This document shows, in pieces, positions 7,602 through 13,123 of a stretch of DNA of 64,000 nt; position 1 is the first letter of the stretch; each line of letters starts with the position of its first letter. A model generated the notes under the pieces. That model was not told the origin of the DNA. It did no database searches and saw nothing but the letters and a program-made list of their open reading frames with translations. A program made the position numbers and the translations under genes. Origin of the DNA: Crocinitomicaceae bacterium (GTDB lineage: Bacteria > Bacteroidota > Bacteroidia > Flavobacteriales_D > Crocinitomicaceae); NCBI GenBank assembly GCA_029238665.1, contig JAQWFQ010000030.1, forward strand, positions 124,001 through 188,000. Reading direction: 5' to 3'.

Positions 7602-8540
7602 TTAAGCGTTTACATTCATGTTATCTAAAACAGTCATTACATTTCTTACCGCTTCTGCAGACTCATTAAGCATTGCTTTTTCTTCATCATTAAGATCTAA
7701 CTCAATAATTTTTTCAATACCATCTTTACCCAAAACAACAGGTACACCTAAGTAGATGTCTTTCATTCCATACTCACCATCTAACCATGCGCAAACAGGG
7801 AATACTCTTTTTTGGTCTCTAACAATTGCCTCTACCATTTGAGCAGCAGCTGCACCTGGTGCATACCAAGCAGATGTTCCTAGTAATTTAACGATTTCAC
7901 CACCACCAAACTTAGTTCGTTCAATGATTTCGTCTAATTTCTCTTTTGAGATCAATTCAGTAACTGGGATACCAGCAACAGTTGTGTAACGTGGAAGTGG
8001 AACCATTGTATCACCATGACCTCCCATAAGTACCGCTTGGATATCTTTTGGAGAAACATTTAACTCTAAGGCTAAAAATGAACGGTAACGTGCTGTATCT
8101 AACACACCAGCCATTCCAAATACTTTGCTACGGTCAACTTTTGCTGTTAAATAAGCACAGTATGTCATTACATCCAAAGGATTCGAAACACAAATTATTT
8201 TTGCGTCTGGAGAATACTTGATAATGTTTTCAGTAACCATCTTAACAATCCCAGCATTTGTTGCGATTAAATCATCGCGAGACATACCTGGTTTTCTTGG
8301 CAAACCTGAAGTAATAACCACTACATCAGAGTTAGCAGTTTTAGAATAATCATTCGTAGATCCAATCGTTCTTGAATCGTACAATGCAATTGGAGAAGTT
8401 TCCCAAATATCTAACGCCTTACCTTCTGCAAAACCTTCTTTGATATCTAACAATACAATCTCGTTAGCAATTTCTTTATGAGCTAATACATCAGCACAAG
8501 TAGCACCAACATTTCCAGCTCCAACAACAGTCACTTTCAT
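7602..8540 (-). CDS. mdh: Malate dehydrogenase
   Basis: A 312 aa NAD-dependent malate dehydrogenase of the lactate-dehydrogenase-like group usual in Bacteroidota. It oxidises malate to oxaloacetate in the TCA cycle. The Rossmann motif VVGAGNVGATCA is at the N-terminus and the NAD-adenosine Asp follows in VLLDIKEG. The substrate arginines lie in GLPRKPGMSRDDL and MAGVLDTARYR, and the catalytic His is in GGHGDTMVPLPRYT. The length is normal. It has its own promoter (8581-8588) and a terminator directly downstream, so it is probably a single-gene unit. It is divergent from the ECF sigma factor gene. Confidence 0.97.
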   Translation of the reverse strand: MKVTVVGAGNVGATCADVLAHKEIANEIVLLDIKEGFAEGKALDIWETSPIALYDSRTIGSTNDYSKTANSDVVVITSGLPRKPGMSRDDLIATNAGIVKMVTENIIKYSPDAKIICVSNPLDVMTYCAYLTAKVDRSKVFGMAGVLDTARYRSFLALELNVSPKDIQAVLMGGHGDTMVPLPRYTTVAGIPVTELISKEKLDEIIERTKFGGGEIVKLLGTSAWYAPGAAAAQMVEAIVRDQKRVFPVCAWLDGEYGMKDIYLGVPVVLGKDGIEKIIELDLNDEEKAMLNESAEAVRNVMTVLDNMNVNA

Positions 8541-8588: not shown

Positions 8589-8701
8589 ACACAATTGTTA
8601 TTAAATTAAGTTATTTTACAGTCTTTTTTAATGGGGATTATTTAATTCATCATCATAAGGCAACCCCCAAATAAGAACAGCGTCTTACCAACGAAAACAG
8701 T

Positions 8702-9271
8702 GTGGAGAATAAAAACCAATTAAGGCATATAATCAATGGATGCTTGCAGAACAAAAGACGTTCTCAAGAACAGCTGTTTAAGCTTTATTATGGTAAAATG
8801 CTGAGTGTCTGTATGCGCTACACCAAAGACAGAGATTCAGCTGAAGAAGTTCTTCAAGAAGGTTTCATTAAGATCTTTGATAAATTAGAAGTATTTGATT
8901 ACAAAGGGTCCTTTGAAGGTTGGATACGTAGAATCATGTCGAACACGGCTATTGATAGTATACGTAAATCTAAAAAGAACCCGATATTAACCGATAATGA
9001 CAACGACTTCAAGATGGGAGCTGAAGACCCTATAGTTGAAGCAGAAGAATTGGAATCTATCGAAATCAAAGCTGAACTTGCACTAGAAGCGATAAGCCAG
9101 CTATCTCCAGCATACCGAACCGTTTTTAACCTGTATGTGATGGAAGAATACACACACAAAGAGATTGGAGAAATTCTAGGGATTAGTGAAGGCACTTCTA
9201 AATCTAATTTATCTAAAGCAAAAATGAACCTTCAACGAATTTTAAATGAACAATTCGTGAACATTAAATGA
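8702..9271 (+). CDS. ECF-type RNA polymerase sigma factor
   Basis: A 189 aa sigma-70 family protein of the extracytoplasmic-function type. Region 2 spans about residues 20-95 (LFKLYYGKMLSVCMRYT, AEEVLQEGFIKIFDKL, FEGWIRRIMSNTAIDSIR). Region 4 spans about 125-180 and contains the HTH (HKEIGEILGISEGTSKSNLSKAK). The start is GTG at 8702; no in-frame ATG precedes region 2. One base separates its stop from the next ATG, so the sigma factor and the membrane protein at 9273 are surely cotranscribed. That gene order (sigma then a single-pass membrane partner) is the usual sigma/anti-sigma arrangement. Confidence 0.93.
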   Translation: MENKNQLRHIINGCLQNKRRSQEQLFKLYYGKMLSVCMRYTKDRDSAEEVLQEGFIKIFDKLEVFDYKGSFEGWIRRIMSNTAIDSIRKSKKNPILTDNDNDFKMGAEDPIVEAEELESIEIKAELALEAISQLSPAYRTVFNLYVMEEYTHKEIGEILGISEGTSKSNLSKAKMNLQRILNEQFVNIK

Positions 9272-9272
9272 C

Positions 9273-10523
9273 ATGAAAAAAAGTATAGAACAGGGTATTA
9301 AGAATAGTTTAGAAAATCATGAGGTGCCTTATAATGGAGACGCATGGACTGCTATGCAGAAAAAGCTTGATGCAAAAAAACCAACACAGCCCAACTTTAA
9401 GGGATATGCTGCCGTCTTAGCTATACTGGCTGTAGTAATCACCTCTTTTATAGTAGTAGAGCGTTTAACAGACAAGCCTACTCAAAAAACACAAAATATT
9501 AAAACAAATGAGAATAATGAACCTAACAGCATTAAGCTCAAGGAGGTCATACAGAAAAATAGTATTGAGGCTCACTCAACTCAAAACAAAGTAATTGAAA
9601 CGAGCAACATCGGTAATGCTACTTTGCCACAAAACAAAACAAAAGTTTCAGTTGAAGCATCTCAGATAAGTCAACTTCCACAAGAAGTAATAAAACCACT
9701 GTTAATTGAAGAAACACCTATAAACCCACCCAGAACAATTCGTGAAACTGCTGTACCTAAAATAATTGTACTTCCTATTGTTTCTGACGTTTGTGAGGGA
9801 GAGGTAATACAAATAGAGAATCAAAACGATGAAGCAATTCTTATAGAAAATAATAGCCTACGTTTTATCATTCCCGCAAACACTAAGCGTTCAATTCGTA
9901 CTAAAGCAACTGGCAATTATTCAATAAGCCTTTTAAATACAACTGAAAACAGTAAGGTTAACACCTTTTTCGTCAAAGCAAATCCAGCTGTAGACTTTAC
10001 AATTGATTCAGATACAAAATTTGAAGAAGGGATTCCAAGCACCCACATCGAATGCCTTGTTCCGGGTCACGATTTTTCTTGGGCTTACACAAGTCAAACC
10101 AGCAAAGGAAGAAAAACAACGGCACACTTCTACAACAAAGGTGATCATGATGTTACACTAACCGTAACCGGCAGCAATGGATGCACGGCCTCCTTAACAA
10201 AATCGGTATATATTGATCAAACGTATAATTTAATGGCCGTAAACTCATTCATGCCAACATCTACCGATACACGAAAGAGTACGTTTATGCCTTACGCCTT
10301 AACTCAACGAAACAATCAATTTACATTGATAGTAATTGATCCTATTGACGGGCATATCGTTTATCAAACAAGTGATGCATCAGCTGGATGGGATGGTGTT
10401 GACAAGTCAACAGGAAGACTCGTTTCTTTTAAGTCGGCATATATCTGGAAGGTAATCATGGAGACTACTGAACCTCATGAAAAAAATGAATACCTTGGAA
10501 ACATCATACCCGTAGCGTGGTAA
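9273..10523 (+). CDS. Putative membrane anti-sigma factor with PKD domain and T9SS type-B-like tail
   Basis: A 416 aa protein with a short cytoplasmic N-terminus (about 1-44; NHEVPYNGDAWTAMQKKLD, the pattern seen in Bacteroidota anti-sigma-like proteins). One membrane helix follows (about 45-63), then a low-complexity linker to about 165 and beta-rich domains. A PKD-like domain lies at about 265-320 (FSWAYTSQTSKG ... HDVTLTVTGSNGC). The last 90 residues match the layout of the gliding/T9SS type B C-terminal domain: SFMP..STFMP, FTLIVIDPIDGHIVYQT, GWDG, AYIWKV, LGNIIPV. The asparagine/glycine-rich start of that domain is degraded. It probably holds the upstream sigma factor inactive and senses an envelope signal; that role is inferred from gene order and topology. 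Confidence 0.7.
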   Translation: MKKSIEQGIKNSLENHEVPYNGDAWTAMQKKLDAKKPTQPNFKGYAAVLAILAVVITSFIVVERLTDKPTQKTQNIKTNENNEPNSIKLKEVIQKNSIEAHSTQNKVIETSNIGNATLPQNKTKVSVEASQISQLPQEVIKPLLIEETPINPPRTIRETAVPKIIVLPIVSDVCEGEVIQIENQNDEAILIENNSLRFIIPANTKRSIRTKATGNYSISLLNTTENSKVNTFFVKANPAVDFTIDSDTKFEEGIPSTHIECLVPGHDFSWAYTSQTSKGRKTTAHFYNKGDHDVTLTVTGSNGCTASLTKSVYIDQTYNLMAVNSFMPTSTDTRKSTFMPYALTQRNNQFTLIVIDPIDGHIVYQTSDASAGWDGVDKSTGRLVSFKSAYIWKVIMETTEPHEKNEYLGNIIPVAW

Positions 10524-10535
10524 ATGACAAAATCA

Positions 10536-11474
10536 CTAAAAGTTAAGGTAAGGGTGTTTTTTTAGCAGTTCTCGTTTTGATTCTAAAACTTGAGCCTTCA
10601 TCTTTACATCTGCATTAGAGTTGAGATATAATGCCTTGTGAGATTCGGAAGCCTTAATTTTCTTAACCTCTTGACTTAAGGAAATCGTTTCTCCTGAACA
10701 ATGTGCTTGCTCAAACTTATCCCAAATAAAATCTACAGCGGCAGAACTAGGATGTACTAAGTCTTCTGAATAAAACCGGTAGTCTCTCAACTCGTCTACT
10801 AAAACCTCGTATGCTGGGAAATATTTCGCTGAAGTGGACTCTACCATTCGATGTACCAATTCAATGAGCCTAGCCTTACTCCTATTGTTCTCAATAAGCC
10901 CATCTTTTTTGTGTCGAACGGGGCTCACCGTAAAAATCAATTGCAACTCTGGGTTTAATTCTGTTAGTAACTGAATCAAACTTGACCACATTTTTTCCAT
11001 CTCAACAATAGAACTCAGTGACTTCGTAAACTTACCCTGATGCTCTTTATGACAATTACCAACCAACATTGATGAGTCGTTGTGAATATATCCCCACGCC
11101 GACCCAAATGTAATTATCATTGTTTTTGCAGACAGTAAAGACTGCTTAAGCTCCTTTCTACGTTTAACGATCTCATTCACCAATTCAGACTCCGACATTT
11201 TAAAAACACCTCCCGAGCTATCCCAAGAATGGAAAACATCATCCGAACGTTTAACCTCAACATCAATATCATCTGTAATTGCAGCATGAATAACATTGAA
11301 AATGGCTTCTGGATGGAACAATGTTCCAAATGGATTTGACACTACAGAAAAACCACTCCCACTAAGTTTAGCAGCAATTTCAGTAGAAAAACAACTTCCA
11401 ATCAGAACTGTTTTGTCCATGTGATTCAATTTCAAATCACTTTGTTCAATAAATAGGTTTAATTTAAACTTCAT
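10536..11474 (-). CDS. GSCFA domain-containing protein
   Basis: About 312 aa, named after the motif seen here as VLIGSCFSTEIAAKL (about 24-38). It is followed by NPFGTLFHPEAIFNVI, a later TFGSAWGY and a closing LVHPSSAAVDFIWDKF. The family is related to GDSL/SGNH hydrolases, and the serine in GSCFS and the His in VHPSS fit that idea. The substrate is unknown. I prefer the ATG at 11474 over the GTG one codon earlier; it overlaps the recN stop by one base (TGATG), implying coupled translation at the end of the long minus-strand cluster. Confidence 0.8.
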   Translation of the reverse strand: MKFKLNLFIEQSDLKLNHMDKTVLIGSCFSTEIAAKLSGSGFSVVSNPFGTLFHPEAIFNVIHAAITDDIDVEVKRSDDVFHSWDSSGGVFKMSESELVNEIVKRRKELKQSLLSAKTMIITFGSAWGYIHNDSSMLVGNCHKEHQGKFTKSLSSIVEMEKMWSSLIQLLTELNPELQLIFTVSPVRHKKDGLIENNRSKARLIELVHRMVESTSAKYFPAYEVLVDELRDYRFYSEDLVHPSSAAVDFIWDKFEQAHCSGETISLSQEVKKIKASESHKALYLNSNADVKMKAQVLESKRELLKKHPYLNF

Positions 11475-13123
11475 CACTTCATTAAGGCTCGTGCATTATC
11501 CAAGGCAGACACATTAATTTCATCACCACTCATAAGTCGTGCAGTTTCTTCTATACGCTCATCTCCCGTGAGTTCTTGAACAATTGTTTTTGTCTCCCCC
11601 TCCTCAATATCTTTAATTACTTTCAAATGCTGTCCGCCTTTTGCAGCTACTTGAGGCAAGTGAGTAATTGCTATAACTTGCATATCACCCCCCATCTTTT
11701 TTAACATCGACCCCATTTTTTGGGCAACATCACCAGACACTCCTGTATCAATTTCATCAAAAAGCATTGTTCTTAACTTAACCTTTGATGACATTACACT
11801 TTGCAACGCTAACATAACACGAGAAAGCTCTCCTCCACTTGCCGCTTGATGAATAGCCACAGGGTCAACCCCAACATTTGGACTGAAAAGAATTTCTAAA
11901 TGTGAATTCCCGTATGCATTAAACTCCGCTTCCTGATTCAAATCAAACCTTAAAATCGTGTTCTCTAACTTTAAATCAACCAGCTCTCGTGTCAACTCCG
12001 CTTCAATTCCAGGAATGGCCTGCTTTCTTTTTTCATGAAGTACATTGGCTAACTTCAACAACTCTGTTTCGGTCAACTTCAACTCTTGGTCCAAGCGTGT
12101 TATATCATTTTCCAATTGTGTACATTGAAATGATGATTCCGATAGTTCATCATAAAGCGCAACTAATTCTGCTTGTGATGTTTTGTTGTGTTTTTGAAGG
12201 GCTCTATTGTATCGGTTTAGTAAATCCGTTAGTTCTTCAATACGCCTTGGGTCAACATCAACTTGCGCAAGATGGTCTTCCGCCTCTGAAGTCAAATCCT
12301 TAGACTCTATCAAAATAGTATTAATCCGCTCTAGAATGTCATTTAAATTTTTATCAAACTCAGCTTTTCGAGAAACGATAACCTTTAAGGCACTCAACTT
12401 ATCATTGATTCCTTCTTCACTTTGAAAACTATCAACGACAGCTCCAAACCCAACACGTATATCATCCGCATTTTCAGCTTGATTTAACGCTTCTTGAATT
12501 TGGTCAAAATTATTTAAAGGTAAGTTTAACTCTTCCAGTTCATTTAATTGAAACTGGTTGTAATCGGCCTGCGACAACACTTCAGTAAATTCCTTCTTTA
12601 ACCTCAACAGCTGTTTTTTGCCTTCAGAAAACATTACTTTTCTTTCGTAAAACTCAGCTCGATCACTTAATGTTCCAGCAAGAACATCTACGATTTTCAA
12701 TTGAAAATCTGCCGATTTTAACTCCAGTGTATTGTATTGTGAATGAATGTGTATTAACTGCCCTGAAAACGCTTTTAAAACACTCAACTGAACAGGTGTA
12801 TCATTAATAAACGCACGTGAACGCCCCTGCTTCAAGATTTCCCTTCGCACAATGGTACGGTCAAAATAATCTAACTCATGCGCTTTAAAAAAAGACTCTA
12901 GCTCAAATCCTTTAATTAACAGCTCTGCTTCAACGGTAGATTTATCCCCCTTATTTCCGATAACAGTAAAATTAGCACGCTCACCTAAAATTAAACTTAA
13001 TGCATTTAATAAAATTGATTTTCCCGAGCCAGTCTCCCCTGTAACAACAGTAAAACCGCTATTAAAATTAATTAATGCGGTTTCAATTATTGCAAAATTC
13101 TCTATTCGTAAAGAGTCAATCAT
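11474..13123 (-). CDS. recN: DNA repair protein RecN
   Basis: A 549 aa SMC-like ATPase that acts in recombinational repair of double-strand breaks. The N-terminal Walker A is VTGETGSGKSILLNAL (about 27-42), followed by LGERANFTVIG. A coiled-coil middle follows (about 155-360). The C-terminal ABC signature is ASGGELSRVMLAL, and Walker B is MLFDEIDTGVSG with the following ITHLPQVAA. Length and motif order are normal. Its start codon overlaps the stop of porD by one base (TAATG), placing it in the bamD-rpoZ-coaBC-porD-recN cluster common in Bacteroidota. Confidence 0.96.
   Translation of the reverse strand: MIDSLRIENFAIIETALINFNSGFTVVTGETGSGKSILLNALSLILGERANFTVIGNKGDKSTVEAELLIKGFELESFFKAHELDYFDRTIVRREILKQGRSRAFINDTPVQLSVLKAFSGQLIHIHSQYNTLELKSADFQLKIVDVLAGTLSDRAEFYERKVMFSEGKKQLLRLKKEFTEVLSQADYNQFQLNELEELNLPLNNFDQIQEALNQAENADDIRVGFGAVVDSFQSEEGINDKLSALKVIVSRKAEFDKNLNDILERINTILIESKDLTSEAEDHLAQVDVDPRRIEELTDLLNRYNRALQKHNKTSQAELVALYDELSESSFQCTQLENDITRLDQELKLTETELLKLANVLHEKRKQAIPGIEAELTRELVDLKLENTILRFDLNQEAEFNAYGNSHLEILFSPNVGVDPVAIHQAASGGELSRVMLALQSVMSSKVKLRTMLFDEIDTGVSGDVAQKMGSMLKKMGGDMQVIAITHLPQVAAKGGQHLKVIKDIEEGETKTIVQELTGDERIEETARLMSGDEINVSALDNARALMK

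Follow-up and report, generated by a model that had tools for sequence, protein, structure and literature searches.

The sigma/putative anti-sigma locus

The window, i.e., the whole stretch of 64,000 nucleotides that was analysed, belongs to a draft genome of 2.2 Mb (34 contigs), whose nearest named relatives are Crocinitomicaceae MAGs. It harbors two adjacent genes (Table 1) separated by just one base. The product of the first one is, judging from its sequence, an ECF sigma factor, since regions 2 and 4 (Pfam Sigma70_r2, E 2.1e-16, and r4_2, E 8.4e-16) and the ECF superfamily model of NCBIfam (sigma70-ECF, 112 bits) are all matched. The second one encodes a membrane-anchored putative anti-sigma factor, hereinafter referred to as the partner. 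The next gene (10536-11477) lies on the opposite strand, so that the pair stands alone in the window.

The sigma gene is preceded by a divergent gene (7602-8540, minus strand) that by eye is malate dehydrogenase-like. A gene of this kind is located before the sigma gene also in other families (L375, 165-1100; the start of L376; L378, 18648-19568), and this recurrence suggests that the order of the locus is old.

Table 1. Features of the sigma/partner operon and small ORFs of related loci; positions are those of the window, except where a locus (L) is named.
Feature	Position	Strand	Remarks
ECF-type promoter GGCAAC-N16-CGTCT of the sigma/anti-sigma operon	8659-8685	+	ends 16 nt before GTG
ECF sigma factor gene	8702-9271	+	189 aa, GTG start
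Partner gene (membrane-anchored putative anti-sigma factor)	9273-10523	+	416 aa
N-terminal domain, residues 1-40, putative sigma-binding part	9273-9392	+	two helices, invariant W25; homology to barrel-type N-termini
Predicted membrane helix, residues 48-65	9414-9467	+	AlphaFold; hydropathy of relatives
Low-complexity linker, probably disordered, residues 66-165	9468-9767	+	low pLDDT
First Ig/PKD-like domain, residues 166-236	9768-9980	+	AlphaFold
Second PKD domain, residues 237-315	9981-10217	+	PKD_4 E 0.0039; PDB 4tn9
T9SS type B-like C-terminal domain, residues 317-416	10221-10520	+	homology of relatives, AlphaFold, fold comparison
Small secreted-looking ORF	L374 11831-12247
Small secreted-looking ORF	L375 15472-15849
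Small secreted-looking ORF	L376 2647-3033
Small secreted-looking ORF	L376 13564-14010
Small secreted-looking ORF	L379 10887-11339

Domain organization of the partner protein

Searched alone, the partner gave a single Pfam match, PKD_4, under the cut-off of that model, with no CHU_C, and no NCBIfam match. Its AlphaFold model, run with 43 relatives (mean pLDDT 79), predicts two helices (residues 2-14 and 22-33), a membrane helix behind a 47-residue head, a stretch of low confidence up to about residue 165 and then, from about 168 to 414, a region folded with confidence and composed of two Ig/PKD-like domains and the C-terminal domain (CTD). The second PKD domain resembles those of collagenases (4tn9, Z 9.8, rmsd 2.1, 79 aligned). 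The mean identity of the 43 members to the window protein is 35% in the N-terminal domain and 36% in the CTD, against 16% in the membrane helix, 11% in the linker, and 18% and 23% in the two PKD domains, whereas the length of the linker ranges from 70 to 146 residues (median 102). The N-terminal domain and the CTD are thus the best conserved parts, which indicates that selection maintains both ends of the protein.

The first-pass annotation had described an ECF sigma factor with a single-pass membrane partner bearing a short anti-sigma-like N-terminus and a PKD domain. The ORFs, the Pfam and NCBIfam matches of the sigma factor, the predicted helix, the AlphaFold model and the homology of the N-terminus (see below) bear out this description, except that AlphaFold gives two Ig/PKD-like domains rather than one.

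The N-terminal sigma-side motif is tandemly duplicated in some members, and several Chitinophagaceae partners with short tails show the same duplication (L014, L028, L032, L042, L044 and L102).

Assignment of the CTD to type B

The window partner itself matches neither CHU_C (PF13585) nor TIGR04131 at E <= 1, though CHU_C is matched at E <= 0.01 by 14/28 and 25/43 of its aligned relatives. In a profile-profile comparison, the CTDs of 24 same-genus members aligned with 31 cargo CTDs over 95 columns (Prob 98.34, E 1.2e-14), whereas five column shuffles did not exceed Prob 6.64 and the family's own PKD2 reached 19.8. On the grounds of this homology, the type B assignment is real at the family level, even though the window protein misses the curated models.

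Modelled alone, the CTD is predicted with a mean pLDDT of 94.4 to contain four main strands and a less regular N-terminal stretch. Foldseek placed PorZ (5m11) first, at E 0.037, with no row at E 0.001. Among the 50 rows shown by VIA-align, eight are T9SS cargo or T9SS component entries aligned in their C-terminal domains, the best being 8glk_D (NucA complex; Z 8.0, rmsd 2.2, 73 aligned) and the others having Z 6.0-7.1, where Z < 8 is common for such folds; a streptococcal protease occupies the top three rows (Z 8.8-9.2), and further Ig-like domains are scattered through the list. The comparison of the modelled fold with T9SS domains is supportive, not decisive. From the letters alone, the domain had been predicted to be type B-like and to be kept outside the cytoplasm by the membrane helix, and it is this that the profile homology, the CHU_C matches of the relatives and AlphaFold support; no unrelated domain emerged from the profile comparison, AlphaFold or VIA-align.

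The FTPNGDGxND loop (the motif as it occurs in the cargo proteins studied here) has degenerated in the window partner as in the rest of its genus (SFMPTSTDTRKSTF) and is kept in many distant relatives. It has been reported that the secretion of SprB required all five motifs of its type B CTD (PMC12618676). Taken together with the loss of the loop in the genus, this might suggest that the CTD binds without being exported, or that it does not bind.

Kinship of the N-terminal domain

Related sigma loci were found with the sigma alignment, and the best 80 were used. In the nearest sigma loci outside the order, the partners share the N-terminal domain and differ in their C-termini. Of the 80 partners, 41 match the CTD model, which was partly built from the same sequences; 14 look by eye as if they end in a barrel, while the tails of most others are short or of a different kind. 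The OMP_b-brl_2 threshold was passed by eight of the nine barrel-type proteins scanned, the ninth reaching 26.7 of 27 bits. When 34 N-termini of the window's type were compared by hhalign with 12 barrel-type ones, Prob 96.85 and E 2e-10 were obtained (five shuffles, Prob <= 0.59). The N-terminal domain is, according to this profile comparison, homologous to that of Dma-like barrel-ended anti-sigma-type proteins of Bacteroidota, and in the predicted architecture of the window partner the T9SS tag occupies the place of the barrel. In a sigma tree the types of partner cluster (10 changes, whereas shuffling gave 32.5 on average), the tree having been built by a quick method, with 42/94 inner branches below 80; it was too weak for counting C-terminal exchanges.

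The window's genome contains two other related pairs. The first, a second CTD-type pair on contig C9 (L166, 969-1502 and 1492-2310), has a partner of 272 residues with the same N-terminal motif, a helix, a linker and CHU_C over the cut-off, without PKD, and is preceded by a variant promoter, GAAGCAACC-N17-AGTCTA. The second, on contig C32 (L402), has a partner of about 145 residues with a similar N-terminal motif; GAGGCAACC is found upstream of it, and CGTCT is absent. In a different family, L392 (G054) contains a 397-aa CHU_C frame with another anti-sigma-like N-terminus, which suggests that anti-sigma/CHU_C fusions recur.

Distribution of the gene pair

The pair is deeply conserved. Relatives of the partner were found at E <= 0.001 in 59/60 related genomes, many of the weaker matches being only to CTD/PKD parts of cargo, and the sigma gene adjoins the partner on the same strand in 44/46 loci of the best matches, the other two lying at contig ends. 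Within the order, 231/249 genomes match the 43-member partner profile at E <= 1e-40, although the weakest genome-level matches may be cargo; among the matches listed (about 150), nearly all cover the whole profile. Across the phylum, 259/392 genomes match at E <= 0.001, and among the matches listed only those of the window's order are full-length, the others being PKD/CTD parts of cargo.

The T9SS marker SprA_N is present in 244/249 genomes of the order and in 17 of the 18 that lack a partner match. Four of the five genomes without SprA_N match the partner; since they are drafts of 120-290 contigs, this does not demonstrate a loss of T9SS. The link between the pair and T9SS that had been anticipated is upheld to the extent that the survey did not find the pair to be common in T9SS-less species, as far as these are visible. 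However, T9SS being nearly universal in the order, co-occurrence says little in favor of a decoy function, and it was dropped as a deciding argument.

The pairs in two records titled Glaciecola amylolytica (L096, CP034120) and Candidatus Kuenenia (L089) group with Crocinitomicaceae (in the case of L096, with a MAG of Fluviicola), and either wrong titles or mixed assemblies may account for this.

Promoter of the operon

The sequence AAGGCAAC-N16-CGTCT precedes the window sigma gene. The motif is kept at 28/29 same-genus sigma genes (27 with N16 and one with N17), where the flanking sequence drifts. A matrix trained solely on sigma-gene promoters gave scores above 9.1, the maximum of the control genes (see below), at 12/15 other-genus loci and at 18/19 named-record loci; the low-scoring loci retain GGCAAC and deviate at -10. 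It is known that ECF factors often control themselves; given this, GGCAAC-N16-CGTCT was taken as the sigma factor's own promoter. In the window's genome, where 7 of the 11 sigma-type genes were parsed, a passing score was obtained only for the window sigma gene (26.9) and for the second CTD-type pair (13.0). The -35 element GGCAACC is common to related pairs, and some cargo may hence belong to another sigma factor.

Putative type B cargo regulon

The motif is not enriched genome-wide, either as exact GGCAAC-N15-17-CGTCT (19 sites against 28 reversed controls, seven genomes) or as a looser pattern (47 sites against 45, nine genomes). Since the exact search gave fewer sites than its controls, raw counts alone mean nothing; genome-wide enrichment was rejected, and it is solely the placement of the sites before sigma and cargo genes that constitutes the signal. 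Thirty sites of the loose pattern were inspected: nine lie within genes, five before the sigma gene, 13 before secreted-looking genes (whose CTDs were checked in part of them), and three elsewhere.

The matrix was applied to the 180 bp upstream of CHU_C genes taken in list order (19/23 in the window's genome, 39/50 in G010 and 30/44 in G027), with the exclusion of fragments, of genes truncated at the end of a contig and of a second anti-sigma. As controls, 92 genes (93 minus the sigma gene itself) from the window and three 20-kb stretches were used. The score exceeded 9.1 at 23/88 CHU_C genes and at 0/92 control genes (Fisher p 1.3e-8, the threshold being the control maximum), while the full score distributions differ more weakly (Mann-Whitney p 0.004). 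Dinucleotide shuffles of 80 upstream regions yielded a mean of 0.56 passing sequences (maximum 3), and the opposite strand 0/80. The sites end 10-56 bp ahead of the ATG in 18 of the 23 passing genes. Seven of these genes belong to the window's genome, and three of the seven deviate at -10; two of the three have GAGTCT and thereby come closer to the variant promoter of the C9 pair. In a distant complete genome, 4/34 CHU_C genes exceeded 9.1, one of the 34 being another anti-sigma-like protein.

The similarity of the cargo CTD to the anti-sigma CTD does not correlate with the promoter score (Spearman 0.17, p 0.12). A cut in CTD similarity chosen post hoc separates 11/24 genes with the promoter from 12/64 (p 0.012); the idea that the cargo with the most anti-sigma-like CTDs carries the promoter was rejected, because it is not significant overall and only this cut gives such a value.

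One type B cargo gene could be followed through its orthologues, which are present in 27/34 relatives (in the window's genome, an 893-codon CHU_C frame at C15). In 20/21 same-genus genomes the 150 bp before this gene contain the motif with no more than one mismatch, the exception having four mismatches; outside the genus this is so at 1/6 loci.

Synteny with cargo genes

Outside the genus, a large, mostly secreted-looking ORF follows the partner gene on the same strand, directly or past a small ORF, at 12/15 loci; outside the family, a large same-strand ORF lies behind the partner at 10/12 loci. In six 20-kb neighbourhoods, which had been picked for CTDs nearby in earlier matches, the genes after the pair encode type B cargo proteins whose lengths range from about 1150 to 4640 residues, and four of the six contain a second small gene with a motif scoring 10.2-13.6. 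CHU_C was confirmed by Pfam in the followers at L105, L109, L112, L374 and L379. At L098 (6811-9024) and L103 (6774-8984), in a close family, the pair is instead followed by the gene of a C25 peptidase whose CTD is of type A.

Small secreted-looking proteins of 110-150 residues are encoded between the pair and the giant cargo or among the cargo genes (Table 1), several of them behind a sigma-type promoter; three of those located between pair and cargo gave no Pfam match at E <= 0.01.

A possible sensor of type B export

We propose that the partner might be a tethered mimic of a T9SS substrate, coupling the type B export route to the transcription of type B cargo with a logic similar to that of FlgM, and we assign to this reading a probability of about 0.45. 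The putative anti-sigma would span the inner membrane, its disordered tether would cross the periplasm to the outer membrane, and the CTD at its end would mimic a type IX substrate, its most likely counterparts being SprA, the translocon, and a shuttle of the PorP/SprF type. The targets of the sigma factor, which is presumably bound by the N-terminal domain, would be the operon itself together with a group of genes for type B CTD cargo. With spare type B capacity, the CTD would be engaged or pulled and the anti-sigma disabled, probably by proteolysis, allowing the sigma factor to make cargo; once cargo saturates the shuttles, the CTD would be left free and the sigma factor held, which is the sign of the response that we infer. 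It has been reported that type B CTDs need cognate PorP/SprF shuttles, low in amount and apparently not recycled (PMC12618676), and that type B proteins remain bound to PorP-like proteins in the outer membrane (PMC9143113). Such scarce shuttles would suit a titration sensor, and a tethered CTD would be well placed to read whether the type B route is free.

The coupling to export is favored by the type B homology of the CTD, by the conservation of the CTD and N-terminal domain on either side of a linker that varies in sequence but little in length, by the positions of the cargo promoters (23/88 against 0/92), by the cargo synteny, and by the N-terminal domain held in common with barrel-ended partners. 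It is weakened by the unenriched raw counts, by the weaker Mann-Whitney result (p 0.004), by the 4/34 of the distant genome, by the missing correlation between CTD similarity and promoter, by the -35 element shared with related pairs and by the loss of the loop.

The chief rival, which we regard as possible though rather doubtful, is that the T9SS tag only exports and anchors the protein, replacing the beta-barrel of the Dma type, so that the PKD/CTD end, at or outside the outer membrane, would sense a ligand or contact, to which the sigma factor would answer with adhesin-like cargo. The cargo promoter data fit this surface receptor too, and the swap of C-termini agrees with it, as the same N-terminal domain carries outer-membrane barrels elsewhere. 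PorP-like proteins of the outer membrane can serve as anchoring points for proteins with type B CTDs (PMC9143113), and Dma2 has been hypothesised to sense glycan at the surface (PMC13088901). However, the degenerate loop speaks against export in the window's genus, and the PKD domains, i.e., the would-be receptor, are less conserved than the CTD (18-23% vs. 36%).

The first-pass annotation had itself suggested that the periplasmic CTD could be a decoy reporting a blocked T9SS. This is unlikely: the CTD and the topology are as it predicted, and ECF control of T9SS components is known elsewhere, from SigP (PMC4800418) and from F. psychrophilum, where gldN and porU have SM6 promoters (PMC9723704), but the regulon evidence, drawn from the inspected motif sites, the sigma and CHU_C upstream regions and the synteny, points to type B cargo and the pair itself and not to chaperones or machinery. 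Since cargo switched on during a jam would worsen matters, feedback on cargo supply or sensing at the surface fits better than an alarm. Least probable of all is a general envelope-stress anti-sigma with a relic CTD, whose overlap with cargo promoters would reflect a motif common to several ECF factors, since the degenerate loop, the unenriched whole-genome counts and the -35 shared with a related pair of the same genome, which agree with it, are countered by a CTD as conserved as the sigma-side domain and by the promoter enrichment and synteny of the cargo.

As regards matching the production of very large T9SS cargo to export capacity, the regulators described so far (PorXY-SigP, SM6) have machinery genes as their targets. 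If the proposed coupling is true, one gene pair would report type B export to transcription, its defined promoter could be used as an in vivo read-out, the Dma-type anti-sigma plan would be shown to be modular, and the pair would help to assign the individual type B cargo proteins to their shuttles.

Comparison with known systems

FlgM, which acts on sigma-28 in flagella, is both an anti-sigma factor and a substrate of flagellar export. The likeness lies in the logic, as an anti-sigma would bear the export signal of the system whose substrates its sigma factor controls; FlgM, however, is soluble, leaves the cell and is unrelated in sequence, whereas the window partner has a predicted membrane helix. 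With T9SS type B cargo (CHU_C PF13585/TIGR04131; SprB and similar) the partner shares a homologous C-terminal domain, but it is short, lies beside a sigma gene, has a predicted membrane helix where cargo has a signal peptide that is cleaved, misses the curated model and, in its genus, has a degenerate canonical loop.

The plan of the Dma family comprises a sigma gene, an N-terminal domain, a helix, a disordered tether and an outer-membrane barrel (PMC13088901). The window partner likewise adjoins an ECF sigma gene, has an N-terminal sigma-side domain of the same kind (by comparison with Dma-like proteins) and is predicted to have a single membrane helix and a long disordered tether; it differs in having two PKD-like domains and a type B CTD instead of the C-terminal beta-barrel.

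In Porphyromonas gingivalis, a T9SS CTD protein, PorA, influences through PorXY the ECF factor SigP, which controls T9SS genes (PMC7712824). According to that account, the CTD protein, the sensor kinase and the sigma factor are separate and the sigma factor controls machinery genes, while in the window a single polypeptide combines the CTD with the putative anti-sigma, and it is cargo genes that bear the motif. In Flavobacterium psychrophilum, an ECF/anti-sigma pair shares the SM6 promoter class, with a CGT box at -10, with T9SS genes; these are gldN and porU rather than type B cargo, and the account of these promoters mentions no CTD on the anti-sigma (PMC9723704). A literature search, with most subscription papers beyond its reach, found no fusion of an anti-sigma with a T9SS type B CTD, the nearest published cases being PorA-PorXY-SigP and the SM6 promoters.

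A Dma-like putative anti-sigma with a T9SS end and a candidate cargo regulon is, within the reach of that search, a new combination. It might represent, although we would put the odds somewhat short of even, the type IX counterpart of FlgM, i.e., an anti-sigma bearing a substrate signal, whose engagement by the type B route would switch cargo transcription; its N-terminal module, which in other Bacteroidota carries barrels, would then define a modular class of envelope-spanning proteins with exchangeable outer-membrane ends.
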